A DNA stretch of 41,157 bases, taken from Candidatus Sulfopaludibacter sp. SbA3. Its GTDB lineage: Bacteria > Acidobacteriota > Terriglobia > Bryobacterales > Bryobacteraceae. Numbering within the stretch: the first letter of the stretch is position 1; the number at the start of each line of letters is the position of its first letter. The position numbers were made by a program, and so were the translations under genes. Positions 143 to 29,123 of this stretch are shown piece by piece. The stretch is from positions 1-41,157 of the forward strand of contig CAMDED010000060.1 of NCBI GenBank assembly GCA_945893365.1, given 5' to 3'. Under the pieces are notes generated by a model that searched no databases, was not told the origin of the DNA, and saw only the letters and a program-made list of their open reading frames with translations.

Positions 143-1223
143 TTGAGTACGAGAAAAGTGTTCGACGCCGTGTTCCTGGGATCGGCCTGCCAGTTAGGGA
201 CCGCGCATCGCATCGAGTTCGAGTGCCGTGCCGGCGTCCTTTCCAAGCGCATCGGACCTTTGAGCGAAGATACCCTCGGCTACGCCATGCAGCGTCAGGA
301 CCCTCAGTCGATACTTGAGTTAGGCTGCACGATAGTCAAGAGCTTGAAGAGAAACGGCGTCCTCGGTTCCGATTGGGCTCGGGGGCGCGTGGTCGCAGCC
401 GTCGATGGCATCGAGATCTGTAGCTCCTACGCGCGCTGTTGTGATACTTGCCTGGAGAGGAGGGTGGAAGAGAAAGTGGACGGCGCAATGCGCGAGTGCC
501 GTCAGTATTACCACCGCGTCTCGGCCGTCACGCTGGTCAGCACGCCTTTTCCGGTATTCCTGGGAATCCGCTTTCAGCAAGCCGGTGAAACCGAAGTGGC
601 TGCCTCGCTGGACTAGCTGCGGCAACTGGTTGGGCAACTCGGGCCCCGGTTCATGGATGTCCTGGTCGCTGACGCCATCTACCTGCAAACGCCGTTCGTC
701 CGTGCGATCGAATCGTTGGGCTTGGAATGGGTCATTAAGCTGAAGGACAATCAACCGGCTTTGCTGGCCGAGGCGGAACGCCTCACCGCGGCTCCCGCCT
801 CTTGCCAGTGGTCCGACGGTAACGGCGACTTTTCTCTGTGGCATTTGCCGGAAGTCGACTGGCCCGTGGCCGACCGCATGGTGCGTGTCGTCAAAACCGT
901 CCGGGTTCAAAAAGTCAAGCGCGTCAAGATCGAGACTATCGGCGAACTTCGCGAGAAGAAAAAAGAAGAGGTCCAGGCGCACTGCACCAATTTCTATGCC
1001 ACCAACGTGAATCTCGCCTCCATCCCTCCGCAGTTTATTCGGCAACTGGGCCGAAGCCGCTGGACCATCGACGCTGCCGCATTCCAAACCCTCACTACCG
1101 GCTGGCATCTCAAGAAGCCTTCCGTGCATCAAGACGTCGCACTGGTAGGCGATGATTCGGGTTCTGGCCTATACCTTGATGATGGTCTTTTATCATCGCC
1201 AGTCGCATAGTTCGCACCATTGA
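143..1223 (+). pseudogene. Decayed DDE (IS4-like) transposase
   Basis: Transposase remnant of a DDE type with the signature AVDGIE, then CC..CL, then YYHR. The frame from a TTG at 143 runs to an in-frame TAG at 614-616. It continues in the same frame (LRQLVGQLGPRFMDVLVADAIY) to about 1150, where a one-base shift moves it to a frame reading MIRVLAYTLMMVFYHRQ and ending at TGA 1221-1223. The first two catalytic Asp are visible (AVDG, about residue 88, and VADAIY). The position normally occupied by Glu in RWxIE reads RWTID. An internal stop, a frameshift and a changed catalytic residue all argue it is dead. No terminal inverted repeats could be defined. The 142 bases upstream show no intact start of the protein. 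The IS family assignment is tentative. Confidence 0.8.
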
Positions 1224-1248: not shown

Positions 1249-1283
1249 ATGGCCTGTCATGATAACGCAAGGAGGTTGAATCG

Positions 1284-2618
1284 ATGTCCGAGCACAATCG
1301 TAAAGTCGACCGGCGCAGCTTAATGAAGATCATGGGAGCGGCGGGCGCGACGGGCGTGGTGATGTCCGGTTGCAGCAGTTCCCATGGGAGAACGGGCGGC
1401 TCCGAGCTGACCGGCGACCTCACGGGCGGCAGGTGGGATAGGTCTATTGCCGTGGCCAGCGCCGGACCCGGTGGCAACCCGGACTGGCAGCGCGGCGATG
1501 CCGTCAAGTTTCTCCCGCCGGAAAGGATTCCCACCCGTGGAAAGGCCTCGAGCGTCCTCGCCGCCCTCCCCAAGGACCAGTTGCTGACCATCTACCAGAG
1601 GATGACGGCCAGCCGCAAGTGGGAGACCGCGATGAAGGACCTCTTCGTAGGCGGCAAGGACGGACTCTACGGTTCCTTCCACACCTATATCGGGGAAGAG
1701 GCCATCGCCTGCGGAGTGATGGCGGCGCTCAATGACGACGACTACATCGCCAGCACCCATCGCGGGCACGGCCACCTCATCGCCAAGGGCGGCGACCTCA
1801 ATAAGATGGCGGCTGAAATTTTTTTCAAGGAGACCGGTTACAACAAGGGCTACGGCGGCTCCATGCACATCACCGATATGGCGAAAGGCATCATGGGCAT
1901 GAACGGCATTGTGGGAGCCAGCTACTACCTCGCGGCGGGAGCTGCGATTCGAGGAATGGTTCGCGGAACCAAACAGGTCGGCGTGGCCTTCTTCGGCGAC
2001 GGCGCGGCTAACTCGCCTTACTACTTCAGCGCCATCCGCAGTTGCGCGAACTACAAAATTCCCACCATCTTTGTAAACGAGAACAATTTCCAATACATGG
2101 GCGTGCCGATGGCCACCGTGGTTCCCACCAGATACATCTCCGATTACACGCGCGGGTTGGGCATTCCTCATCATGTGGTCGACGGCAACGATGTGTCGGC
2201 GGTGTACGCCGCAACCAAAGAGTCGGTGGATTGGGCGCGGGCCGGGAATGGACCCAGCATGATCGAGGGCATCACCTATCGCTGGTACGATCACTCGGGA
2301 TTCGCCGGCGGCAGAGTCGGCGCGGACGGAGCGATGGGGCTCCCTTATCGTTCCGATGAAGAGGTGAAGCAGTGGATGTCGCGCGACCCCATTGCGCGAT
2401 ACAAGGGGTGGCTGTTGGAGAAAGGCCTTGCGACGGCGGGCGAACTTTCAGGCATTGAGGCCGGGATGGATAAGGCTGTGCAGGCGTCCATCGAGTTCGC
2501 GCGGCAGAGCAAGGATCCCGAGCCCGGCGCGGGAGTCTGGAACACCAGCGCCAGCGGCCCCATGCCGGCCACGCAGTTCTTCAACCGTTCAGGCCTGGCG
2601 AATTCAGCCAAGGCTTAA
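1284..2618 (+). CDS. TPP-dependent 2-oxoacid dehydrogenase E1 alpha, Tat lipoprotein-like
   Basis: E1 alpha of the pyruvate/acetoin/branched-chain dehydrogenase superfamily, which decarboxylates a 2-oxoacid (or cleaves acetoin) on thiamine diphosphate. The TPP motif is clear: GDG at 238-240 and VNENN at 264-268. Other family marks are HRGHGH, KGYGGSMHI and GIVGA. The substrate/phosphorylation-loop region reads RWYDHSGF rather than the usual RGHS.SDP. The protein is 444 residues against roughly 320-370 for the family. The extra length is N-terminal: twin Arg at 10-11 (DRRSLMK), a hydrophobic Ala/Gly stretch, and a lipobox-like VMSGC with Cys30, followed by a Ser/Gly-rich linker. Seen: the signal-like N-terminus. 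Inferred: export by Tat as a folded, cofactor-loaded, lipid-anchored enzyme. The beta subunit follows after 14 bases. The start is set by AAGGAGG. The substrate cannot be told from sequence. Confidence 0.9.
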   Translation: MSEHNRKVDRRSLMKIMGAAGATGVVMSGCSSSHGRTGGSELTGDLTGGRWDRSIAVASAGPGGNPDWQRGDAVKFLPPERIPTRGKASSVLAALPKDQLLTIYQRMTASRKWETAMKDLFVGGKDGLYGSFHTYIGEEAIACGVMAALNDDDYIASTHRGHGHLIAKGGDLNKMAAEIFFKETGYNKGYGGSMHITDMAKGIMGMNGIVGASYYLAAGAAIRGMVRGTKQVGVAFFGDGAANSPYYFSAIRSCANYKIPTIFVNENNFQYMGVPMATVVPTRYISDYTRGLGIPHHVVDGNDVSAVYAATKESVDWARAGNGPSMIEGITYRWYDHSGFAGGRVGADGAMGLPYRSDEEVKQWMSRDPIARYKGWLLEKGLATAGELSGIEAGMDKAVQASIEFARQSKDPEPGAGVWNTSASGPMPATQFFNRSGLANSAKA

Positions 2619-2632
2619 GAAAGGAGACCGGA

Positions 2633-3616
2633 ATGGCTAAGAAACCCTACGCATTTGCTCAGCTTGAGGCGGTTGCTCTTGAGATGCGCCGCAACAAGGA
2701 CATGGTCTTCTTCTATGAGTATGAGACTCCGGTCGCGACCTCGCCGTCCGGCGAAATTCTGGATTTGATCAAAGAATTCGGCAAGGTCCGCACGTCGGGA
2801 CGCGGTTGGGCGATTGATGAAACGTGGCTCGTCGGCGCGGCGGTGGGTGTCGCCGCGGCCGGCTCCCCCGCGCTCGTGCGGCTGCCTTCGATGACCACGC
2901 TGTTTGCCATCGAATACATCTACAACCAGGCGGGCAAGCTGCGCTCGATGACCGGCGGACAGGCAAGCATGCCGTTCGTTCTGTGGCAGGGCGGCGGAGG
3001 CCGGACCAAAGGTTCGGCCGGGCAGCACACCGAGGTCGGGCAGGAAGCCATCTACGCGAACCTGCCCGGCGTGAAAGTGGTCGTGCCCAGCAACGCTTAT
3101 GACGCCAAGGGTCTCTTGATCGCCTCGATTCGCGATCCGGACCCCGTCGTTTACTTCGATTATTCGGAAGTGAAATCGGGTGAGCAGCCCGACGTTCCGG
3201 ATGAGGCCTACGAGGTTCCCATAGGCAAGGGCGTGGTGCGGCAGCAAGGTAAGGACCTGACGCTCGTGGCTTGGGCTCCGGCGACGGTCGATGTGAAACG
3301 GGCTCTGCCGGAAATCGCCAAGGCCGGCATCGGTGTCGAGTACATCGACCCGCGAACGCTGAAGCCGCTCGACGTCGACTTGTTGGCGGCCTCGGTGCGC
3401 AAGACGCGTAGACTGCTCGTGGTTGAGCATGGCCACTACACCAACAGCTTCGGCTCGCATGTGATCGCGGAGGTGGTTCAGGCGGTGCCGGGCGTGAAGG
3501 TGAAAAAGATCGCTTTCCCCGATGTGCCGGGGCCGGGCGCGCAGGGGATGATGGGCTGGCTGCGACCCGATGCGCCCAAGATCGTCGATGCGGCGATTCA
3601 AATGATGAGGGCCTGA
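2633..3616 (+). CDS. TPP-dependent 2-oxoacid dehydrogenase E1 beta
   Basis: Transketolase-like pyrimidine-binding domain in the N-terminal half and transketolase C-terminal domain in the second half. Recognisable stretches are the region around NQAGKLRSMTGGQ, the Gly-rich GGGGRTKGSAGQHTE, LPGVKVVVPSNAYDAKGLL, and C-terminal YIDPRTLKPLD with VVEHGH. The length (327 aa) is normal for E1 beta. There is no signal peptide. If the enzyme works outside the cytoplasm, this subunit would have to be carried through Tat bound to alpha (a hitchhiker), which is inference. It starts 14 bases after the alpha stop with AAGGAGA as ribosome site. No E2 (lipoyl acyltransferase) or E3 gene lies near, which is unusual for a classical dehydrogenase complex. 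Confidence 0.9.
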   Translation: MAKKPYAFAQLEAVALEMRRNKDMVFFYEYETPVATSPSGEILDLIKEFGKVRTSGRGWAIDETWLVGAAVGVAAAGSPALVRLPSMTTLFAIEYIYNQAGKLRSMTGGQASMPFVLWQGGGGRTKGSAGQHTEVGQEAIYANLPGVKVVVPSNAYDAKGLLIASIRDPDPVVYFDYSEVKSGEQPDVPDEAYEVPIGKGVVRQQGKDLTLVAWAPATVDVKRALPEIAKAGIGVEYIDPRTLKPLDVDLLAASVRKTRRLLVVEHGHYTNSFGSHVIAEVVQAVPGVKVKKIAFPDVPGPGAQGMMGWLRPDAPKIVDAAIQMMRA

Positions 3617-3629
3617 TTTGGAGCCGGGA

Positions 3630-3920
3630 ATGCCGGAGCCGTGCCCGCGCTGCGGCGGTGACATGCATCCCGCCAACGTCAAGACCGCCATCTGGCGCGA
3701 GGAACGCGTGTTTGTGGTGGAGGATATTCCCGCCCAGGTATGCGCCTCCTGCATGGAGCAGTTCTATGACGAGGAGACTACCGATGCGCTGCGCCGCTTG
3801 ACGGAAGAAACTTTTACATCGGCGGAGCCGGTGAGGGAGATCGTCGTTCCCGTCTACTCGCTCGAAGGCCGGATCCACAGGAGGGAATTTGCCGAGGATG
3901 AAGTGCCCGTCGACTATTGA
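3630..3920 (+). CDS. YgiT-type zinc-finger domain protein
   Basis: Small protein of about 96 residues with two CxxC pairs, CPRC near the start and CASC in the middle, as in the YgiT/MqsA N-terminal zinc-binding domain. The line VVEDIPAQVCASCMEQFYDE is typical of that family. There is no helix-turn-helix and no toxin gene beside it, so an antitoxin role is not supported. The ATG at 3630 has GGAG six bases upstream. A TTG at 3618 in the same frame is the alternative. It sits inside the E1/cytochrome cluster and overlaps the start of the next gene, so it is probably co-transcribed. No signal peptide is visible. Its job here is unknown. Metal or cofactor handling is possible but unproven. Confidence 0.75.
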   Translation: MPEPCPRCGGDMHPANVKTAIWREERVFVVEDIPAQVCASCMEQFYDEETTDALRRLTEETFTSAEPVREIVVPVYSLEGRIHRREFAEDEVPVDY

Positions 3921-4323
3921 AGGGTTGCCGACTGCGCTGCTGCTGACTGGGTTGCTGATGGCTGCCCTGCTGCTGACGGCGTGCGGCAAGTCCCCCGCGT
4001 CCGCGCCCAAAGCCGAAGCCGCGCCCAATACCGAGGCCGCGACCGCCCCGTTTAAGATGTCGAGCATTTTTCCCGACGGGCCCGGGCGGACTAAGGTCAT
4101 GAACACCTGTGGCTCATGCCATGCCGTGGTGTGCGTCGCACGGGGACAGCGGACGGCGGAACGGTGGGAGAGCATTAAGATGGGCCACCGCGACAAGCTG
4201 GCCGACACAACCAGCGTCGACATCGAGGATATGTTTACCTATCTCGCGGCGAACTTTAACGATAAGAAGCCGGAACCCAGGATTCCGCCGGAGCTGGCGA
4301 TGCAGGGATGCACTCCGTTTTGA
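3898..4323 (+). CDS. Monoheme cytochrome c lipoprotein (first copy)
   Basis: Hydrophobic signal ending in the lipobox LLTAC (Cys29), then an Ala/Pro-rich linker, then one CGSCH heme c motif (residues 71-75 from this start). A conserved tail follows, YLAANFN with a proline-rich PEPRIPPEL end. Predicted to be a lipid-anchored periplasmic electron carrier. ATG 3898 is chosen; a TTG at 3889 in frame is also possible, and both overlap the preceding gene. It shares its layout and several positions with the next gene (heme motif, W about 20 residues later, YLAANFN, PPEL), so the two are likely duplicates. The position directly after E1 alpha/beta suggests an electron acceptor role, which is inference. 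Confidence 0.85.
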   Translation: MKCPSTIEGLPTALLLTGLLMAALLLTACGKSPASAPKAEAAPNTEAATAPFKMSSIFPDGPGRTKVMNTCGSCHAVVCVARGQRTAERWESIKMGHRDKLADTTSVDIEDMFTYLAANFNDKKPEPRIPPELAMQGCTPF

Positions 4324-4341
4324 AATGGCGGCTGGTTTGAA

Positions 4342-4725
4342 ATGGTTTTGAAATGGACGACGGCATTCCTTTTCGTCCTGACGGGCTGTTCACAGGGCCG
4401 CCGCGAGCAGACTGCGGTCACACCCATGGTTGCGTCGCAGCCGGGTCCGGCCAAGGTGAATCTCGATGAGATCTTTCCCGCCGGCCGCGGTCGCGAATTG
4501 GCGCTCAACAACTGCACCACCTGTCACACGTTTGTTCCGATCGTCGTGTTACGGATGAGTAAGGAAGCGTGGGAGCGAAACAGCCGCGACCATCGGGAAC
4601 GGGTGAAGGCGTTGGGCGACGCGGATTTCAAGATCCTTTACCAATACCTGGCGGCGAACTTCAACCCCGAACGGCCCGTGCCGAAGTTGCCGCCGGAATT
4701 GCTGGAGACCTGGACGTCGTATTGA
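4342..4725 (+). CDS. Monoheme cytochrome c lipoprotein (second copy)
   Basis: Short signal with lipobox VLTGC (Cys16), then one CTTCH heme motif (58-62). It has the same tail as its neighbour (YLAANFN, PKLPPEL) and ends TWTSY. It begins 18 bases after the previous gene and ends 13 bases before the NHL gene, so it belongs to the same transcript. Predicted to be a periplasmic or membrane-anchored electron carrier. A paralogous tandem pair could hand electrons in series or serve alternative partners. No Met ligand position can be assigned with confidence. Confidence 0.85.
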   Translation: MVLKWTTAFLFVLTGCSQGRREQTAVTPMVASQPGPAKVNLDEIFPAGRGRELALNNCTTCHTFVPIVVLRMSKEAWERNSRDHRERVKALGDADFKILYQYLAANFNPERPVPKLPPELLETWTSY

Positions 4726-4738
4726 GAAGGAGTGCAAT

Positions 4739-5776
4739 ATGGAATCACGCAAGAGGAATTCTGTGAGCTTTAAACGCGCCGGCCTGTTGTTGCTTTGTAT
4801 TGCCGGCGTAGCACTCTGCCAGCAGGGAAGCGGCGTGCCCGTGCTGGGTTACAAGCTCGTGAATTGGCCCATCGAAGCGACGAGCGAAGCCGGATTTCCC
4901 GCGGGCGCATGGAATCTCATTCAGGCGCCCGGCATTGCCGTCGATACGAAGGGCCATATCCTGGTGCTCCATCGCGGGGCTCATCCGATTCTCGAATTCG
5001 ACGGCGGCGGCAAGTTTGTGCGCTCGTGGGGCGATGGATTGTTCAGCGAGGGGAAAGTCGTAGCCATTCCTCCGGCCAATCGGACTCCAGCCCGGTCCGG
5101 TTACTCGGCCGTATACGGACCGGCCGGATGCGACTCCTGCGGCGCGCACTCGATCCGCGTGGATGCGGAGGGGAACATCTGGGCTGTCGACGCCCCCGGT
5201 CACATTGTCTACAAGATGGACCCGAAGGGTAAGGTGATCATGCGGCTAGGCCAAAAGGGCGTCGCCGGAATGGGCCCGAACAACTTCTACCTGCCCACCG
5301 ACGTGGCCTTCGCGTCCAATGGGGATATCTATGTGGCCGATGGATACGGCAATCCGCGCGTGGTGAAGTTCACGCGGGCCGGAAAATACATCCTGCAGTT
5401 TGGAAAGCGAGGAACGGGTCCAGGCGAGTTTGGCCTGCCCCACAATGTTGTGCTGGACGCGCAAGGCAGGGTGTACGTCACGGATCGGGACAATCAGCGA
5501 GTCGAGGTTTTCGACCCGGATGGAAAATTCCTGAATCAGTGGAAGACCTATGGCGGGGTCTCCACGCTCTTCATGACGAAAGACCGGCACATCTGGGCGG
5601 GTGGGTTCCTGCACGATCTGGACGGAAAGGTTTTAGGACGATTGCCGGTTCCGCCGAGTGGTGGAGGTGGCGGAGTACACGGTACCGCAATCGCGGATTC
5701 CGGGGATGTTTATCTTTCCCTGCTGAACGGGCAAGTGCATAAATTCGTCAAGACAGCGGCGCCGGCCGGACAGTAG
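4739..5776 (+). CDS. Exported NHL-repeat beta-propeller protein
   Basis: 345 residues with a Sec signal (positive n-region RKR, hydrophobic LLLLCIAGVALC). A run of NHL-type repeats follows, for example a blade with GDIYVADGYGNPRVVKF and one with GRVYVTDRDNQRVEVFDPDG. It resembles the peptidyl-alpha-hydroxyglycine lyase/NHL family of six-bladed propellers, but catalytic identity cannot be claimed. The CDSC near the middle is not a heme motif. AAGGAG lies just before the ATG. As the last gene of the cluster, it may scaffold or bind the exported E1/cytochrome proteins, or bind substrate. That role is inferred from position only. Confidence 0.8.
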   Translation: MESRKRNSVSFKRAGLLLLCIAGVALCQQGSGVPVLGYKLVNWPIEATSEAGFPAGAWNLIQAPGIAVDTKGHILVLHRGAHPILEFDGGGKFVRSWGDGLFSEGKVVAIPPANRTPARSGYSAVYGPAGCDSCGAHSIRVDAEGNIWAVDAPGHIVYKMDPKGKVIMRLGQKGVAGMGPNNFYLPTDVAFASNGDIYVADGYGNPRVVKFTRAGKYILQFGKRGTGPGEFGLPHNVVLDAQGRVYVTDRDNQRVEVFDPDGKFLNQWKTYGGVSTLFMTKDRHIWAGGFLHDLDGKVLGRLPVPPSGGGGGVHGTAIADSGDVYLSLLNGQVHKFVKTAAPAGQ

Positions 5777-10297: not shown

Positions 10298-12559
10298 CTA
10301 CGCCGCCGGCTGGATGTTAATGAGCCGCTGCCCCGCGTCCTGCCGCGTGAAAGAGAGAACATCCATGGGGCAGACGGCGATGCAGATGCCGCAGCCTATG
10401 CAAGACGTGTTGAAATTGTTCAGCTCGTTCCGCTTCATGGCGAAATCCATTACATCGATCCCCACCTGGCAGTTGCGGCTGCACTCCCCGCAGGCGATGC
10501 ACTTATCGTTCGAATGGATCGCGAAGCGGCTGAGGCGGAATCGCGTAAACACGGCGCTGAAGATCTGCATCATCTTCGCCAGCGGACACCAGTAGCGGCA
10601 CCAGACCTTGCCGCCAAAGAACGGGTAGAGCGCCACCGGAATAATACCGACCAGCCACACGTCGGCGAACAAGTGGTAGTAGGCGAGGCCAATCTCAGCG
10701 GGTTTCCGGAAGACCGCAACCGCGTCCTTTCCCACCATCAGCACGGTGACGATTACCGCGAACCACAGCACGATCGTGTTCATGAACTCCCAGCGGACGC
10801 TCGCCCGGCCCTTCGGGGCCAGATGCCGCCACCGGTCGCCCACCGTCTCCGCAAGGCCGCCGCAGCCGCAAATCCAGGAGCAATATCGCTTGCCGTGAAA
10901 CAGGACTAGCACCGGGATCAGCACGAAGGACAGCAGCGCGCCCCAGACCAGCCAGACCTGATGCGGCGCGCCGAAGAACGTGTAAAAAAACAGCGGCCAG
11001 GCATAAATAATGCCGTAGGAGCGCCAGGCGTTCCGAGCGAAGTTCGGATCAGCGGCGAGCTTCTCGCCAACCCATTGATACTCCACCGCCCAACGGAAGA
11101 GGAACTCCGGAATGAGGAAGAAGAAGACCCACTGGAAGCCGATGAGCGAGACGTAACGCCAGATCTGGAACTTGTCTTTCTTGTCGAATCCCCAGCGCTT
11201 CATGGCCCGTGCGCCGAACACGGTCATGGCCGCCGTATAGACCACTGTGTACCAGAATGACCACGGACGGTCAAAAAACGATACGGCCTTGTGCCCCCAA
11301 CCGTGGTAGGGCCAATACTCGACGTTATCGCCTCCCTTGACGGCGTAGATGCTGTAGGCAACCACGAAAGAAGCGCCCAGGAATGCGAACCGGTTACCCT
11401 TGTAGGCCGTCCAGCAGAGGGCGCCAAAGGACGCCAAAGCCAGTAGCCCGCCCCACAGCGACTGTCCCGCAAAGGCGCCGAGGTCCGGCTTGCCGCCCAG
11501 GATCCACAGACCGAGAAACGTGGCGAGCACCCCGGCGAGAGCCGCGAACGGATTGCCGGTCCAGTCGTTCTCAAGCCGGACGCCGAGCGATCGAAGGAAA
11601 GCCGTGGGAGCTTCGGCGCCGATCAGAACGAACGAATGGCGGTATGGCACTCGCTCGCCCGATTCGAATTCGACGAAGCCCGGCCCAAAGCGGCGTACGC
11701 GCGATTTGAGCATCAGCCGCACCGTACCCGCGGCGACCGCGGCGTGGAGCAGGCGCCGGTTGTCCTTGAAAAGGCGCGAGAATGCCGTGCCGCGGTGCGA
11801 AATCGTCACTCGGTTCCGTGGCGCGAGCGTGAGCGCCGCTTCGACCGCGCTGTTACCGCCGCCAACAATCAGTATGTCTTCGCCGTGGACGTGCTGAGGA
11901 CTGTAGAGCCTGTGGTAGACGTGCTCCAGGTCTTCCCCGGGGACGCCCAGACGGCTGGGGTTGCCGCGTAGTCCGATCGCCAGGACCACCCGGCGGCCGC
12001 GGTAACTGCCCTTCGCGGTGGACGCCTCGAACCAGCCGTCCTTCCGCTTACCCAGGCCGGTCACTCCCTCTCCCGTGCGTACGTCGAGACCGCTCGATTC
12101 GACCTCGTCCCGCCAGCGCGCCACCAGGTCCTCTTTGGCCGCGCCATCGAGCCAGAGCCTGCCTTTTGGAGCTACACTCTCCGGCTCCGCGTAGATCCAT
12201 TTACCTTCCGGAAAGTCTTCAAGAGTATCGGCCAGACGGCCCTTTTCCAAAACGACTACCTTCAGCCCGCGATGCTGGGCGGCCAGCGCGGCGTTCAGGC
12301 CCGCGGCGCCGGCTCCAATGACGATCAAATCCCATTCGTCCTCACGCGCCAGGCGCGCATCGGACTTTGCGGCGATGTGCAGAGCCACGCGATTCCCCTG
12401 CTCCATCGCCAGTTTCAGAACCGGGGCGCCGGTGAGGTCGCCGGCAATGTAGAGGCCCTCGATGTTGCTCTCGTTGTTCTCATTGACCACTGGACGCCGA
12501 GTGACGCCATTCGGACTGTTGAGAATATCCTTGAGAAGTTTGCTAACACTGGTCAACAT
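10298..12559 (-). CDS. FAD/NAD(P) oxidoreductase fused to membrane polyferredoxin
   Basis: 753 residues. First third: a thioredoxin-reductase-like flavoprotein with VIGAGAAGLNAAL (FAD Rossmann) and LIVGGGNSAVEAAL (NAD(P) Rossmann). Middle: about nine hydrophobic segments (for example WGGLLALASFGALCW; YVSLIGFQWVFFFLIPEF). Then NapH/NosR/CcoG-like cysteine motifs (YCSWICGCGG; WCRYWCP) and two [4Fe-4S] motifs, CIACGECSRNC and CIGCGICIAVCP. Likely role: moving electrons from NAD(P)H through FAD to membrane Fe-S centres, or the reverse. Odd: the motif GLYIAGDLTGAP, normally the C-terminal FAD motif of this fold, sits at residues about 36-47, before the first Rossmann motif. It is missing after the NAD domain, as expected for a circular permutation. 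ATG at 12559. Confidence 0.85.
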   Translation of the reverse strand: MLTSVSKLLKDILNSPNGVTRRPVVNENNESNIEGLYIAGDLTGAPVLKLAMEQGNRVALHIAAKSDARLAREDEWDLIVIGAGAAGLNAALAAQHRGLKVVVLEKGRLADTLEDFPEGKWIYAEPESVAPKGRLWLDGAAKEDLVARWRDEVESSGLDVRTGEGVTGLGKRKDGWFEASTAKGSYRGRRVVLAIGLRGNPSRLGVPGEDLEHVYHRLYSPQHVHGEDILIVGGGNSAVEAALTLAPRNRVTISHRGTAFSRLFKDNRRLLHAAVAAGTVRLMLKSRVRRFGPGFVEFESGERVPYRHSFVLIGAEAPTAFLRSLGVRLENDWTGNPFAALAGVLATFLGLWILGGKPDLGAFAGQSLWGGLLALASFGALCWTAYKGNRFAFLGASFVVAYSIYAVKGGDNVEYWPYHGWGHKAVSFFDRPWSFWYTVVYTAAMTVFGARAMKRWGFDKKDKFQIWRYVSLIGFQWVFFFLIPEFLFRWAVEYQWVGEKLAADPNFARNAWRSYGIIYAWPLFFYTFFGAPHQVWLVWGALLSFVLIPVLVLFHGKRYCSWICGCGGLAETVGDRWRHLAPKGRASVRWEFMNTIVLWFAVIVTVLMVGKDAVAVFRKPAEIGLAYYHLFADVWLVGIIPVALYPFFGGKVWCRYWCPLAKMMQIFSAVFTRFRLSRFAIHSNDKCIACGECSRNCQVGIDVMDFAMKRNELNNFNTSCIGCGICIAVCPMDVLSFTRQDAGQRLINIQPAA

Positions 12560-26000: not shown

Positions 26001-26315
26001 GATCACGGTACGCGTTCACTGGCGCAGTGGTTTAATCCGTCGGTGTATTCCGCCCCGCCGCTCGGCACGTTCTCGCCGGTGGCGCGCAACATTCTCAGCG
26101 GACCGGGCTGGAATCAATGGGACCTCTCGTTCGTGAAGGCCATCCCGTTCGGCGAGGGCCGTCGAGTGGAGTTGCGCGCGGACGGTTTCAACATTTTCAA
26201 CCATACGCAGTTTAATACCGTGGGGACGAACTTCCAGCAACCTGCCACGTTCGGGCGCATCACGGCGACACGAAATGAGCGCAACTTTATGGCTGGCATT
26301 CGCATTCAGTTTTAA
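23076..26315 (+). CDS. Oar-like TonB-dependent receptor with CarboxypepD-regulatory domain
   Basis: 1079 residues starting at TTG. Signal (LRLALAGLLLAGILPAQE), regulatory domain (VVQDSTSAVVPNAAIRLRN; NYSIVFLPIGTYEV), plug-like region (SRGRNVLPFALLMPGV; EFRAIRGNYSAEFGIGGGSQ; SGTNDLHGSLYWFHR), then an extended barrel with many FFFV, WSKTID and GLRWSYFPP segments. It ends in aromatic Phe (AGIRIQF), as outer-membrane barrels do. Divergent from the 19416-22757 receptor but only distantly similar to it. Its last 41 bases overlap the start of the multiheme cytochrome gene, so the two are translationally linked. Ligand unknown. Confidence 0.9.
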   Translation: MTHPILRLALAGLLLAGILPAQEVTAGIYGVVQDSTSAVVPNAAIRLRNIATGRTHQTATDESGNYSIVFLPIGTYEVSAEAQGFKKLVLSDVALRVNDNRRISITLEVGQLAEQVTVEASAVTVNTASGTTSQLLDGRDMIKLPSRGRNVLPFALLMPGVVSDTPYDRRNNRSMVNGIRPTHNAWLLDGGYNIDTGGNWGTPLSPNIETVAEFRAIRGNYSAEFGIGGGSQFNVITKSGTNDLHGSLYWFHRNDKLNARNFFSPSREPFKGNDYGFSVGGPVYIPKVYDGRNKTFFFVLLGWIKERREQNFLQIVPTAAYKTGNFSALGRPLYDPDNGMPFAGNVIPPARIDPNALGYAKMYPDPNFLDAAGRNWSALIGRVDDTTEKNFRVDHNFSDKHRVMWRYTPEFRLNDFATSSGFAFLRQNNQTPARNMTANYNATFRPDLIMDLTFVRSHNRIKQFPPDLSGATWGINIPQLFADTDKTYPLGSLNLDKVPDRVPTITLTNYASVAPGSPWSNFQTIYELRNNFTWIKNKHTLKAGFAYSYEIKFEPTNTDVFGRFNFDGRFTRQAGATSGGDAFADMLLGRPLQYDETDTVAFNDNRRNSIEFYFDDSWKVTRKLSINLGLRWSYFPPATEPDDRFRVFVPSAYDPSKAVTLNAAGQVQRGSGDRFNGLVNPKSYWDSSKRNFAPRVSFAYDLTGKGRTVTRGGYGLFYSREILGAFILMSGNPPFSQLVSIQSTRLSNPGGGTARDFDLPIELGSIDTNQLTPNTQQWNIGVEHGLDNNTVVEVGYTGSRVIHMMRTQDINQPLPNAAIAQGASAHPFRPYKGWTVINHREQSFMSNYHGLQVGLKRNYAKGIMFQSAYTWSKTIDNADFTAGIYGFAPNTRDSSGERGRASLDANHNFIGSVIWDIPFLKDHKDIVGKAFGGWQVSTIYTLRTGLPISPELGRDNAGVGTSTRQRPLASGSPFLDHGTRSLAQWFNPSVYSAPPLGTFSPVARNILSGPGWNQWDLSFVKAIPFGEGRRVELRADGFNIFNHTQFNTVGTNFQQPATFGRITATRNERNFMAGIRIQF

Positions 26316-27738
26316 CGGGAACGCCTGCCAGAGCTGCCATCGAGCTATCGTCGAAGCCTATCAACGGACCGGCATGGGCCGGTCCGTTTCCCTTTCCCCG
26401 CGCGTTTCCGAAGGGGCGTTCTACCATCGGCTCTCAAACCGGCACTACACGGTCCGCGATGGGCGGATGCGCCGAAACCAGAAGGACGCGCAGGGCCGGG
26501 AAGTGAATCCGGTTGAGAAAACCATCGATTTTGGCATCGGCTCCGGCAACCACGCGGTCACTTACGTTCACCGGTCCGCCGAGGGGCGGTTGATTGAGTT
26601 GCCCGTGTCCTACTACGCGCTTTCCGGTTGGGCCATGTCGCCCGGTTACGACAAACCGGATCATCTTGACTTCAGGCGGGAAGTGACTGCTGCCTGCCTG
26701 TTTTGCCACTCCGATTCGAGCGACCCCGCGCCGATCGGCTGCGGACGCTGCCACGGCGATGGCGCCGCTCATGCGCTGAAGCCGTCTCGAGAGAATATCG
26801 TAAATCCCAAGCGTCTTCCCGCATCCAGGCAGTTGGACGTCTGTCTGCAATGCCACCTTGAAACGGCATCGAGCGGATTTCCCGATTCCTTGCGCCATGC
26901 GGGGAGGGATGTGTGGCCGTACAAGCCAGGCGAAGCGCTGACGTCGTACAAAACCTATTTCGACCGTGACGATAGTAAGGACCGCTTCGAGGTGAATCAC
27001 GCCGGATACCGTCTGATGCAGTCCCGATGCTTCACGGAGAGCGGCGGCCGGATGACGTGCACCACCTGTCACGATCCGCACAGCGCCAAGGCGCGTAACG
27101 CATGCGGTTCCTGCCATTCGTCGCCGCATGCCCGCGGGACAACCGATTGCGCCGGCTGCCACATGCCGAAGCGCCGCACGGAAGACGCTATTCATGTGCG
27201 AATGACCGATCACAAGATTGTCCGGTCCCCGAAGTTTGAAGAACCGAAGGATGAGCGTCATGAGGCTTTCGCCGGCGGCCTGAAGGCGTTTTACGGCGTG
27301 GGACTCCTCGACCTGGCGCATGTGAAGCAGGCAATCGACTCGGGTCGCGGCACGGAAAACGACTATCGCCGTTGGCTCGCTCTTGAGCCGGGATCGAGTG
27401 CGGCGTTGGCGTCGCTTGGAGAGGCATTGATGCGGTTCGGCAAGCGAGCCGAGGCCGTGCCGCTGCTCGAACAAGTTCGCCTGGACGATCCCCGCAATCA
27501 GGCCGCATTGAACGCCCTGGCCGTTCATCACGCTATCGAGGGCCGGCTTGGGAAGGCGATGGACCTGCTCACGGAAGCTCGGGCCGCGAACCCGGACCAC
27601 CCCCTGACGTGGATCAATCTTGGAGTGACGCACGAAGCGCTGGGCGATACACGGAAGGCGCGCGCCGCCTATCTTGAAGCGATCCGAATCCAGCCGGATT
27701 CAAGTGAGGCTCGCCGCCGACTGGCTGCGCTCAGGTGA
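26275..27738 (+). CDS. Seven-heme cytochrome c with C-terminal TPR repeats
   Basis: 487 residues. Seven CxxCH motifs occur in order: CQSCH, CLFCH, CGRCH, CLQCH, CTTCH, CGSCH and CAGCH, all in the first 300 residues or so. The last 130 residues form about three TPR units (LASLGEALMRFGKRAEAVPLL; LAVHHAIEGRLGKAMDLL; WINLGVTHEALGDTRKARAAY). The N-terminus MSATLWLAFAFSFNGNA can act as a short signal but lacks positive charge. These codons are shared with the receptor gene in another frame. It resembles multiheme cytochromes of the NrfA/octaheme-like group with TPR partners, but no catalytic motif (such as CxxCK) is seen, so an electron-transfer role is the safe reading. Confidence 0.85.
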   Translation: MSATLWLAFAFSFNGNACQSCHRAIVEAYQRTGMGRSVSLSPRVSEGAFYHRLSNRHYTVRDGRMRRNQKDAQGREVNPVEKTIDFGIGSGNHAVTYVHRSAEGRLIELPVSYYALSGWAMSPGYDKPDHLDFRREVTAACLFCHSDSSDPAPIGCGRCHGDGAAHALKPSRENIVNPKRLPASRQLDVCLQCHLETASSGFPDSLRHAGRDVWPYKPGEALTSYKTYFDRDDSKDRFEVNHAGYRLMQSRCFTESGGRMTCTTCHDPHSAKARNACGSCHSSPHARGTTDCAGCHMPKRRTEDAIHVRMTDHKIVRSPKFEEPKDERHEAFAGGLKAFYGVGLLDLAHVKQAIDSGRGTENDYRRWLALEPGSSAALASLGEALMRFGKRAEAVPLLEQVRLDDPRNQAALNALAVHHAIEGRLGKAMDLLTEARAANPDHPLTWINLGVTHEALGDTRKARAAYLEAIRIQPDSSEARRRLAALR

Positions 27739-27917: not shown

Positions 27918-29123
27918 TCACGAAACCTGCCTCGCCGACGTCGCGTTGCCAGCCGTCTCACCCGTCTCCGGTGCGGGACGGGCAGCGTTCGGCGCTGCGA
28001 CGGTTTTGATGGCGGGCTGGGGCTTCAACACTGGGTCCTGACCAGTCGCTTCACGGAACTCAGCAGCATCGGACAGCTTCTGCAGGAGAAATCGTCCCCA
28101 GGCCTTCGTATACACATAGTCGCCATGGGCCTTGTCGAACACGCAGAAGTCGGCCCTCGTCTTCTCGGGTGCAGCGCTATTCTTCCTCGGTCGGACGCGA
28201 TAGTGCTGCCAAGCCTTGGTGTGGTGATGCATGTTGAACTGGAAAGGCAATTGTCGATTGACTTCCTTCACAACGTCGCCAGCCTTCACCATGTCCGCGT
28301 TCACGACGGGAATCTGTTTTTCGCGGATCATCCCTACGACCTTCTCGAGCTTCTCCATGTCATCGGGTTTCGTTGGATCGAAGTGGATGAACTCCATGGC
28401 CAAATCGGCCGATTTTTCGTGATTCGCGATCTTGGGGACCAGATAAAAGCTGAAACGAAACTGCGGGCTGTTCAGGACCTCCGTCGGCAATCCCATCCGA
28501 AACTGACTGATGTAGTCCAAGACCTTCGCGGAAGCCGAACTCGCGAGCCTCTTGCGGGCTTCCTGTTGCGCTTTTGGGCTGGTTCGCGAGAATTGTATCG
28601 CCAAGGCGAGTTTGTCGGTCAAGCCATACTTCGGCCCGAACTCTTTGACCAGAAGGTCATCGAAATTCATGAGCATAGCTTGGCATTCACCGAATAGTGA
28701 CGGATCGAGGTATGGCATACCGCGGTGCTCAATCTTGTTCCGTAAGCCGAGGATAAACTCCAGGTTTTTTCGTTCCGGTGGATTGGCGGTCACGAAGTGC
28801 CGCTTGATGCACTCCGCCAAATCCCAGTGCGCTGCATCGCCATCAATCCGCTTGTAGCGTTTCCGTTCGCCCGGCGATTCAAGTTCGTACCACGGTTTTC
28901 TGCCGCGCCGATAGAAAATGGCGTGGAAAAAAGCCGTCCACGCGATGACCATCAGAACGATGTAGTTGCCGGCCCGGAAGTCTATGGCCGGTTTGTTGTA
29001 GATCTCAACGGCCGCAAGAGCAGCATCGCGAGCTTTGCTCAGATTCTCTCTGACCGGCTGGGGCAATCCGCGGGGCATGCAGTTACCGTATCCTCCCCTC
29101 GTAATCCAGGGAGGCTTACCCAT
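27918..29123 (-). CDS. DUF3644-like protein with HEPN-type motif
   Basis: 401 residues. The N-terminal part (RDAALAAVEIYNKPAIDFRA, then NYIVLMVIAWTAFFHAIFYR) matches the DUF3644 type. The motif RNKIEH at 128-133 is the R-x4-H signature of HEPN ribonuclease domains. Known: DUF3644/HEPN proteins occur in bacterial defence and toxin loci. Inferred: a stand-alone RNase-like defence or stress gene. It has no partner antitoxin beside it. The tail (KPQPAIKTVAAPNAARPAP) is low-complexity. An in-frame ATG at 29078 is an alternative start. Copies of a methyltransferase-tail fragment lie on both sides, suggesting insertion by recombination. Confidence 0.7.
   Translation of the reverse strand: MGKPPWITRGGYGNCMPRGLPQPVRENLSKARDAALAAVEIYNKPAIDFRAGNYIVLMVIAWTAFFHAIFYRRGRKPWYELESPGERKRYKRIDGDAAHWDLAECIKRHFVTANPPERKNLEFILGLRNKIEHRGMPYLDPSLFGECQAMLMNFDDLLVKEFGPKYGLTDKLALAIQFSRTSPKAQQEARKRLASSASAKVLDYISQFRMGLPTEVLNSPQFRFSFYLVPKIANHEKSADLAMEFIHFDPTKPDDMEKLEKVVGMIREKQIPVVNADMVKAGDVVKEVNRQLPFQFNMHHHTKAWQHYRVRPRKNSAAPEKTRADFCVFDKAHGDYVYTKAWGRFLLQKLSDAAEFREATGQDPVLKPQPAIKTVAAPNAARPAPETGETAGNATSARQVS

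Follow-up and report, generated by a model that had tools for sequence, protein, structure and literature searches.

We describe here a conserved cluster of five genes encoding both subunits of an E1-type 2-oxoacid dehydrogenase, the alpha one bearing a Tat lipoprotein-type signal, together with a YgiT-type zinc finger protein and two monoheme c-type lipoproteins (cytA and cytB). In the window, which is the whole stretch of 41,157 nucleotides analyzed, this core occupies positions 1284-4725, on one strand and with tight spacing. 2-Oxoacid dehydrogenases are cytoplasmic complexes in which the acyl group is delivered to lipoate and CoA and the electrons to NAD. We consider it fairly probable that the cluster encodes a ThDP-dependent dehydrogenase of 2-oxoacids (or acyloins), exported by Tat and with c-type cytochromes as its direct electron acceptors. 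Somewhat more cautiously, we favor the idea that it constitutes an unprecedented respiratory class, an extracytoplasmic ThDP-dependent 2-oxoacid:cytochrome c oxidoreductase, where an E1 freed of E2 and E3 would be exported by Tat, folded and with its cofactor, and its hydroxyalkyl-ThDP would give up electrons one at a time to heme c lipoproteins that are probably bis-His.

All six open reading frames of the region were confirmed (Table 1), being the intergenic spacings, in gene order, of 14 bp, 13 bp (1 bp with the TTG start), an overlap, 18 bp and 13 bp. The sequence-only reading had placed E1 alpha and E1 beta beside two heme c lipoproteins, and reading frames, domains, leaders and CxxCH motifs all bear this out. 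Its proposal of a six-gene cluster stands for the five-gene core, which recurs, but not for the exported NHL propeller, which adjoins cytB only in the window. This gene gave no tblastn match in the 18 other cytB-bearing loci, 13 of which offer at least 2.6 kb downstream, and this absence rules it out as a core member. The core as first read needs one addition as well: its E1 and cytochrome parts hold, and a conserved zinc finger belongs to it.

Table 1. Features of the E1-cytochrome region, in positions of the window.
Feature	Position	Strand	Basis or detail
Shine-Dalgarno-like aaggagg	1269..1275	+	read in sequence; 8 bases upstream of E1 alpha start
Tat signal with lipobox Cys30 (DRRSLMK ... 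MSGC)	1284..1373	+	RR in 23/23, Cys in 22/23 orthologues
E1 alpha, 2-oxoacid dehydrogenase type, signal-bearing	1284..2618	+	PF00676 E1_dh, E 5.8e-63
Enlarged outer active-site loop region, residues 329-358	2268..2357	+	alignment with acidobacterial E1s
E1 beta, without own signal	2633..3616	+	Transket_pyr and Transketolase_C
YgiT-type CxxC...CxxC zinc finger, leaderless	3630..3920	+	TIGR03831; alternative TTG start 3618
cytA, monoheme c lipoprotein	3898..4323	+	CGSCH 71-75, candidate distal His97, conserved Cys79 and Cys138
cytB, monoheme c lipoprotein	4342..4725	+	CTTCH 58-62, candidate distal His84, conserved WTSY-type C-terminus
NHL propeller, exported-type leader	4739..5776	+	NHL repeats; outside conserved core

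The two E1 subunits have the domain make-up of an alpha2beta2 enzyme: alpha contains E1_dh, and beta the pyrimidine and C-terminal domains of transketolase type. His133, GDG 238-240, N267-N268 and His337 of E1 alpha are invariant in the 17 of 23 sequences aligned (alignment A2; 13 of 23 E1 beta sequences make up A3). Glu63 and His132 of E1 beta occupy the positions of the catalytic E59 and H128 beta. Alignments with the human and Geobacillus chains show that the ThDP/Mg motif and the catalytic residues (alpha H133, D239, N267/N268 and H337; beta E63 and H132) are intact; the role of H128 beta is that given in PMC2663715. We found that the outer loop region is 4-12 residues longer in the exported E1 than in other acidobacterial E1s, being full in 22/22 exported rows and shorter in 16/16 canonical ones, and the human E1 alpha loop is 9 residues shorter. 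Locus L017, where the E1 alpha frame is split in two pieces, does not enter A2 and was excluded from both the loop count and the tree. In E1 enzymes, the outer loop is the one that serves the E2 lipoyl domain. The AlphaFold model of E1 alpha, with a mean pLDDT of 47, was too poor to support a docking site and was discarded.

As to the substrate, curated pyruvate dehydrogenase E1 models (TIGR03182/TIGR03181, NF006667) remain far below their cut-offs, with 245.7 vs 393.85, 189.7 vs 411.35 and 182.6 vs 321 bits, and the E1 of acetoin dehydrogenase is a member of the 2-oxoacid dehydrogenase E1 family too. In this sense, the enzyme could be an acyloin (acetoin-type) dehydrogenase, with the rest of the explanation unchanged: the sequence does not specify the substrate, and even the best curated match, a pyruvate dehydrogenase model, is the one scoring 245.7 against 393.85 bits. 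No specific observation speaks against this reading, which we judge unlikely. Neighboring genes gave no substrate clue: aside from the five genes, the only families seen in over roughly half of the loci are antisense or shadow frames of these, and genuine shared neighbors are largely confined to L005, L007-L009, L013 and L014, which are close relatives of one another.

Export of E1 alpha is well supported by its sequence, although a signal alone does not prove it. The N-terminus reads MSEHNRKVDRRSLMKIMGAAGATGVVMSGC, with the RR motif, hydrophobic stretch and lipobox Cys of a Tat lipoprotein, and Pfam TAT_signal matches it weakly (14.9 bits, under the cut-off of 22.7). The Tat/lipoprotein-type signal that had been noticed in the window proved to be conserved: none of the 23 orthologues lacks the RR motif and the Cys is missing in only one, the aligned rows being 62-81% identical to the window protein. 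In L010 and L012 the pattern search caught an earlier RR, and the DRRTLLK motif was read directly instead. The exception is the diverged E1 alpha of G525, which lost the lipobox Cys and retains the RR together with a cleavable-type leader, suggesting that export is the trait conserved. A comparable leader was absent, by eye and up to 110 residues upstream of the match, from 16 distinct canonical E1 rows (L022, without tblastn match, was left out). In the tree, built leaving out L017 and L021, the exported E1s form one side of a branch with a support of 100/100. A TatC gene is present in the own genome.

The signal might alternatively be a decayed leader, or the enzyme be cytoplasmic or anchored on the cytoplasmic side, serving an ordinary E2/E3 encoded elsewhere. 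E1 beta carries no signal, and an E2 gene of the own genome (C49) lies on a contig without E1_dh match. Also, within family f1 more than two E2 domains occur in 4/7 carriers of the cluster vs 3/18 non-carriers (Fisher p 0.07). However, this lean is explained by the carriers' extra E2 genes having their own E1 gene within about 3 kb, and overall E2-domain matches number 40 in 18 carriers vs 41 in 18 non-carriers, the latter being the first 18 listed in the order sample, all of family f1. No clear co-variation of an E2 set with the exported E1, which would have spoken for this alternative, was seen. Nor does E2 accompany the cluster itself, as had been stated for the window: E2 queries gave no match across 369,840 bases of cluster loci. 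With the conserved RR and Cys, the altered outer loop and two exported-type cytochromes in the E1 gene cluster also against it, we regard this alternative as very improbable.

Both cytA and cytB start with a lipoprotein-type leader. Of 37 homologues collected, 28 were aligned (alignment A1), and every one of them keeps the lipobox Cys and CxxCH, a combination proper of class I-like c-type cytochromes. No invariant Met was found among these 28, and a distal Met ligand was therefore rejected. The one invariant candidate is a His, at H-x17-(Y/F)(L/V), in 18/18 cytA and 19/19 cytB, and the hemes would probably be bis-His. A literature search on the heme ligands of quinohemoprotein amine dehydrogenase added nothing to this. 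In the cytB model, blocks of residues 41-120 reach pLDDT 87-97, and the closest fold is SorB, with a moderate likeness (Z 7.2, rmsd 5.6). Foldseek with cytB returned nothing under E 0.001 (best E 0.21), and the SorB model NF052246 gave 17.5 bits, not reaching the cut-off of 93. A PDB sequence search yielded weak matches only, the best E being 0.031 for cytA and 0.0087 for the cytochrome profile.

The small protein encoded between E1 beta and cytA matches TIGR03831 with 36.6 bits (cut-off 20.2), and 16/16 zinc-finger homologues scanned match the model as well, with E values no higher than 0.01. Alignment A4 covers 16 of the 21 zinc fingers available. An MqsRA toxin-antitoxin was considered and rejected: the MqsA model gave 18.2 vs 61.8 bits with the zinc part alone matched, and in the window the gene is flanked by E1 beta and cytA, not by a toxin gene.

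Of 24 loci, 16 have all five core genes; contig ends truncate three, in two the block lies apart, two are without cytA and one is without both cytochromes. L040 was dropped as a copy of L018, and L026, L042, L045-L054 and L056, whose contigs agree in length with those of other loci already counted, were taken to be identical with these. One locus is labelled groundwater, and the isolate names of some others presumably denote sponge metagenomes. Both E1 genes and the zinc finger gene stand with one or both cytochrome genes in 18/23 other loci, which indicates that the association is not due to chance. In a sample of 200 genomes from the order, E1 alpha was found in 17, cytochrome in 17 and zinc finger in 18, with all three in 16, E1 and cytochrome sharing 16 genomes and E1 and zinc finger 17/17, figures to be read knowing that one genus supplies 10/17 carrier genomes and that linked genes co-occur anyway through block inheritance; at genus level, 6 are shared, among 75 genera.

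Whether the cytochromes are the redox partners of E1 deserves consideration. An exported E1 could carry out non-oxidative ThDP chemistry, as a decarboxylase or a carboligase, or use another acceptor (e.g. quinone or a soluble cytochrome), while the cytochromes serve other envelope role. The parts are tied by gene association alone, and the cytochrome pair is not indispensable, since it is lacking in the diverged G525, which retains the zinc finger and both E1 subunits, the alpha one exported, and cytA is missing beside E1 in L011 and L057. Against this, the cytochromes are present in 16/17 E1 alpha genomes of the order, and the zinc finger-cytA-cytB block persists after its separation from E1, 10 kb off in G397 and on a different contig in G237, both draft assemblies. 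The conservation of the cytochromes with this E1, on which the sequence-only reading depended, holds at genome level, apart from the missing pair of G525 and the missing cytA of L011 and L057. We hold separate roles for E1 and the cytochromes as a possible, rather unlikely, explanation.

As in the sequence-only reading, the electron route is an inference. If the cytochromes are indeed the acceptors, E1 alpha and E1 beta would fold together in the cytoplasm with ThDP-Mg, perhaps assisted by the zinc finger, and the complex would cross the membrane through the Tat signal of E1 alpha. E1 beta, having no signal, would be required to hitch-hike. After transit, E1 alpha would be anchored as a lipoprotein and the enzyme would decarboxylate a 2-oxoacid to hydroxyalkyl-ThDP. 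Outside, where lipoyl domain and CoA would be missing, the lipoproteins cytB and cytA may take up the electrons one at a time, in two steps, and water would free the carboxylic acid from the acyl-ThDP left after electron loss. A precedent is given in PMC2663715, where isolated E1p converts pyruvate to acetate, using DCPIP to accept the electrons, at a rate 13 times higher in the I206A mutant.

The system resembles several known ones without coinciding with any of them. It shares with pyruvate and branched-chain 2-oxoacid dehydrogenase E1 (alpha2beta2) both subunits, the ThDP motif and the catalytic His/Glu positions, and differs in the Tat/lipoprotein signal, the larger outer loop, the cytochromes in the operon and E2 not being found adjacent. 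SorAB sulfite dehydrogenase follows a similar plan, in which a small monoheme c subunit, SorB, accepts the electrons of an exported catalytic one, and SorB is the nearest fold to cytB; however, the catalytic subunit of SorAB is a molybdenum enzyme instead of a ThDP-dependent one, and the distal ligand of SorB is Met, whereas here the candidate is His. PoxB, the pyruvate:quinone oxidoreductase, also converts a 2-oxoacid to acid and CO2 free of CoA with electrons going to the respiratory chain, but it is a flavoprotein of the cytoplasmic face, and a flavin domain was not found in Pfam-type domain matches of the cluster proteins. In the first heme domain of the diheme cytochrome c DHC (Z 5.2), the sixth ligand H51 is reported to lie 17 residues from a YL signature (PMC2909971), the spacing seen in cytA and cytB, which in contrast have one heme per protein and are lipoproteins of an unrelated operon. 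In agreement with the first reading, we found no description of an exported or periplasmic E1 in the titles and abstract starts of the open-access literature, which is not proof of absence.

If the proposed function is true, E1 chemistry alone would suffice for a periplasmic respiratory dehydrogenase, and extracytoplasmic keto acids would supply electrons to the transport chain with no need of uptake, CoA or NADH. Such an enzyme may also be of use in enzyme electrochemistry, as a compact electron donor from ThDP to heme. For uncultured Acidobacteriota, it would represent a new route of organic-acid use.

We found all six open reading frames of the proposed cluster consecutively on the plus strand at 1284-5776 of the window, which is contig C60 of an assembly of 7.88 Mb in 299 contigs (96.65% complete). 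They are spaced, in order, by 14 bases, 13 bases, an overlap, 18 bases and 13 bases, and an aaggagg sequence resembling a ribosome site lies directly upstream of the E1 alpha gene. The remaining genes listed include a transposase remnant preceding the cluster; the ORF just before the seven-CxxCH protein is presumably TonB-receptor-like.

Coordinates and matches of the cluster genes and of other genes in the window
Feature	Position	Strand	Match or remark
E1 alpha	1284-2618	+	PF00676, E 5.8e-63
E1 beta	2633-3616	+	transketolase-type domains
YgiT-type zinc finger	3630-3920	+	36.6 bits vs cut-off 20.2
cytA	3898-4323	+	small CxxCH lipoprotein
cytB	4342-4725	+	small CxxCH lipoprotein
NHL protein	4739-5776	+	
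ORF	143-616		no Pfam match; may be rest of transposase remnant
Transposase remnant	653-1210		DDE_Tnp_1, 27 bits
Large protein	10298-12559		pyridine nucleotide-disulphide oxidoreductase part, 4Fe-4S domains; middle membrane-like by eye
Seven-CxxCH protein	26275-27738		TPR tail
DUF3644 protein	27918-29123		E 5e-51

Scanning the genome collection with E1 alpha, an approach limited to close relatives, yielded 17 distinct loci. Five more came from searching 396 genomes of the phylum and 200 of the order, and a sixth (genome G477) from a cytochrome search; the window brings the total to 24. The named relatives are Acidobacteriota, chiefly Bryobacterales, and one contig labelled Rhodospirillaceae. 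The full order E1 alpha-E1 beta-zinc finger-cytA-cytB occurs in 16/24 loci, one of which (L017) has E1 alpha split in two pieces, and three loci truncated by contig ends (L004, L006, L069) match this order in their remaining genes. The cluster is real and conserved. The expected conservation of the cytochromes beside E1 holds for both proteins in those 16 loci; L011 and L057 carry a single cytochrome of the cytB type, in L012 and L058 the zinc finger-cytA-cytB block is located apart from E1 alpha and beta, and L060 lacks the pair. This last locus (L060:898-3421, genome G525), where an E1 alpha of the exported type that has lost the lipobox stands with E1 beta and the zinc finger, is a natural variant. 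At L075:2811-13001 in genome G397, about 10 kb separates E1 beta from the zinc finger-cytochrome block, a stretch in which the overlapping L012 has an ORF that we take to be cytochrome P450-like. The Rhodospirillaceae-labelled contig, L011, is placed among acidobacterial rows near L003 in the E1 tree, and its label may reflect transfer or a binning error. The NHL propeller had been counted as a cluster member, a view that we reject since its gene has no match in any of the other 18 loci that carry cytB. In the phylum sample, an E1 alpha orthologue (70-100% identity) was found in 4/396 genomes, the next-best matches being at 38-43%. Distribution is patchy, as E1 alpha is present in just 1/43 genomes of the family that includes G391.

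In the order sample of 200 genomes, 17 genomes hold E1 alpha (E 1e-120), 17 the cytochrome (E 1e-10) and 18 the zinc finger (E 1e-8). All three turn up together in 16 genomes, and at these thresholds the remaining 182 have no match to any of them. G525 has E1 alpha and zinc finger with the cytochrome missing, and G477 has the cytochrome with E1 alpha missing, probably because its contig ends within E1 beta. Co-occurrence of E1 and cytochrome has a Fisher p of 1.7e-21, or of 2.4e-7 at genus level (6 of 75 genera shared). These p values overstate it, because neighbouring genes pass on together and one genus supplies 10/17 genomes. With the caution that draft assemblies call for, it is more telling that the zinc finger-cytochrome block is retained 10 kb away from E1 beta in G397, and inside a different contig from E1 in G237.

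The E1 alpha leader in the window, DRRSLMKIMGAAGATGVVMSGC, carries a twin-arginine motif ahead of a lipobox-like Cys, and the signal is kept in the orthologues as the sequence-only reading anticipated, with RR in 23/23 proteins and the Cys in 22/23. The sole exception, the 62% identical E1 alpha of G525, has no lipobox in its leader IDRRTLLRTLGSAGATAAFVSPSTAQ, which is still of the Tat type and ends in what we take to be a cleavable-type signal peptidase site. By eye, 16 distinct further E1 rows (about 25-42% identity), taken from the window's own genome and the phylum, show no comparable leader in the stretch of up to 110 residues upstream of the match, which lies partly outside genes. A tree built from 22 exported and 15 canonical E1 rows puts the exported group on one side of a branch with support 100/100; long branches leave its nearest canonical relative uncertain. 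E1 beta begins MAKKPYAFAQLEAV with no leader visible. Tat transports folded, cofactor-loaded proteins, and a partner without its own signal can ride along; E1 beta and ThDP could therefore be co-exported with E1 alpha. TatC is present in the genome.

By sequence family, the exported enzyme is an E1. Alpha His133, Gly-Asp-Gly 238-240, Asn267-Asn268 and His337 (17/17 aligned) and beta Glu63 and His132 (13/13 aligned) are kept, and align with the ThDP motif and catalytic residues of the human and Geobacillus enzymes. Beyond His337, the outer active-site loop region is enlarged, being filled in 22/22 exported rows and 4 to 12 residues shorter in 16/16 canonical ones. In the Geobacillus E1, the outer loop is reported to take part in engaging the lipoyl domain (PMC2663715). 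According to the same paper, isolated E1 converts pyruvate to CO2 and acetate while reducing the dye DCPIP, a reaction 13 times faster in the I206A mutant, whose complex activity falls to 35%. E1 by itself, given an artificial acceptor, thus performs the chemistry proposed here.

The absence of E2 near the cluster was borne out, since tblastn with three own-genome E2 ORFs gave no match in the cluster loci (369,840 bases). Overall, E2-domain matches number 40 in 18 carriers of the exported E1 vs 41 in 18 non-carriers. In f1, the only family in this comparison with both carriers and non-carriers, more than two E2 domains occur in 4/7 carriers vs 3/18 non-carriers (Fisher p 0.07), an excess that leans against an exported, E2-free enzyme. 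Each extra E2 gene of carriers G000, G289, G525 and G477 is either fused to an E1 gene or lies no more than about 3 kb from one, which explains it with no need for the exported E1. An E2 of the C49 type has no E1_dh match on its contig in G000, G289 and G525, and also in non-carrier G421.

Across an alignment of 28 cytA and cytB sequences, every protein keeps the lipobox Cys, CxxCH and one His (cytB His84, cytA His97); no Met is conserved throughout. This His stands 17 residues ahead of an aromatic-Leu/Val signature (18/18 cytA, 19/19 cytB), the same spacing as that given for the sixth ligand, H51, of the first heme domain of DHC (PMC2909971). Together, these features suggest that both cytochromes are likely bis-His ligated with low potential. 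CytA has two further conserved residues (12/12 aligned), Cys79 and Cys138, the latter within a C-terminal GCTPF motif, which may be disulfide-bonded close to the heme. For cytB, modelled at pLDDT 87-97 in residue blocks 41-120, Foldseek gave no match under E 0.001. The closest fold is that of the sulfite dehydrogenase heme subunit SorB, at a Z of 7.2 (rmsd 5.6), a middling score since it stays below 8. This likeness fits, without proving, a role of cytB as heme subunit serving an exported dehydrogenase.

In the proposed mechanism, ThDP and a 2-oxoacid would give hydroxyalkyl-ThDP and CO2, two one-electron steps to heme c would yield acyl-ThDP, and water would release the acid; cytA and cytB could act in series. 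The zinc finger is the steadiest partner of E1 alpha (17/17 order genomes), is leaderless and is retained even in G525, which fits a cytoplasmic role, perhaps in assembly or quality control before export, or in regulation. Searches of open-access papers turned up no description of such an exported-E1 system, in agreement with the initial view that no periplasmic E1 of this kind is known to have been described. If the electron route is demonstrated, these enzymes would constitute a new class of respiratory enzyme.
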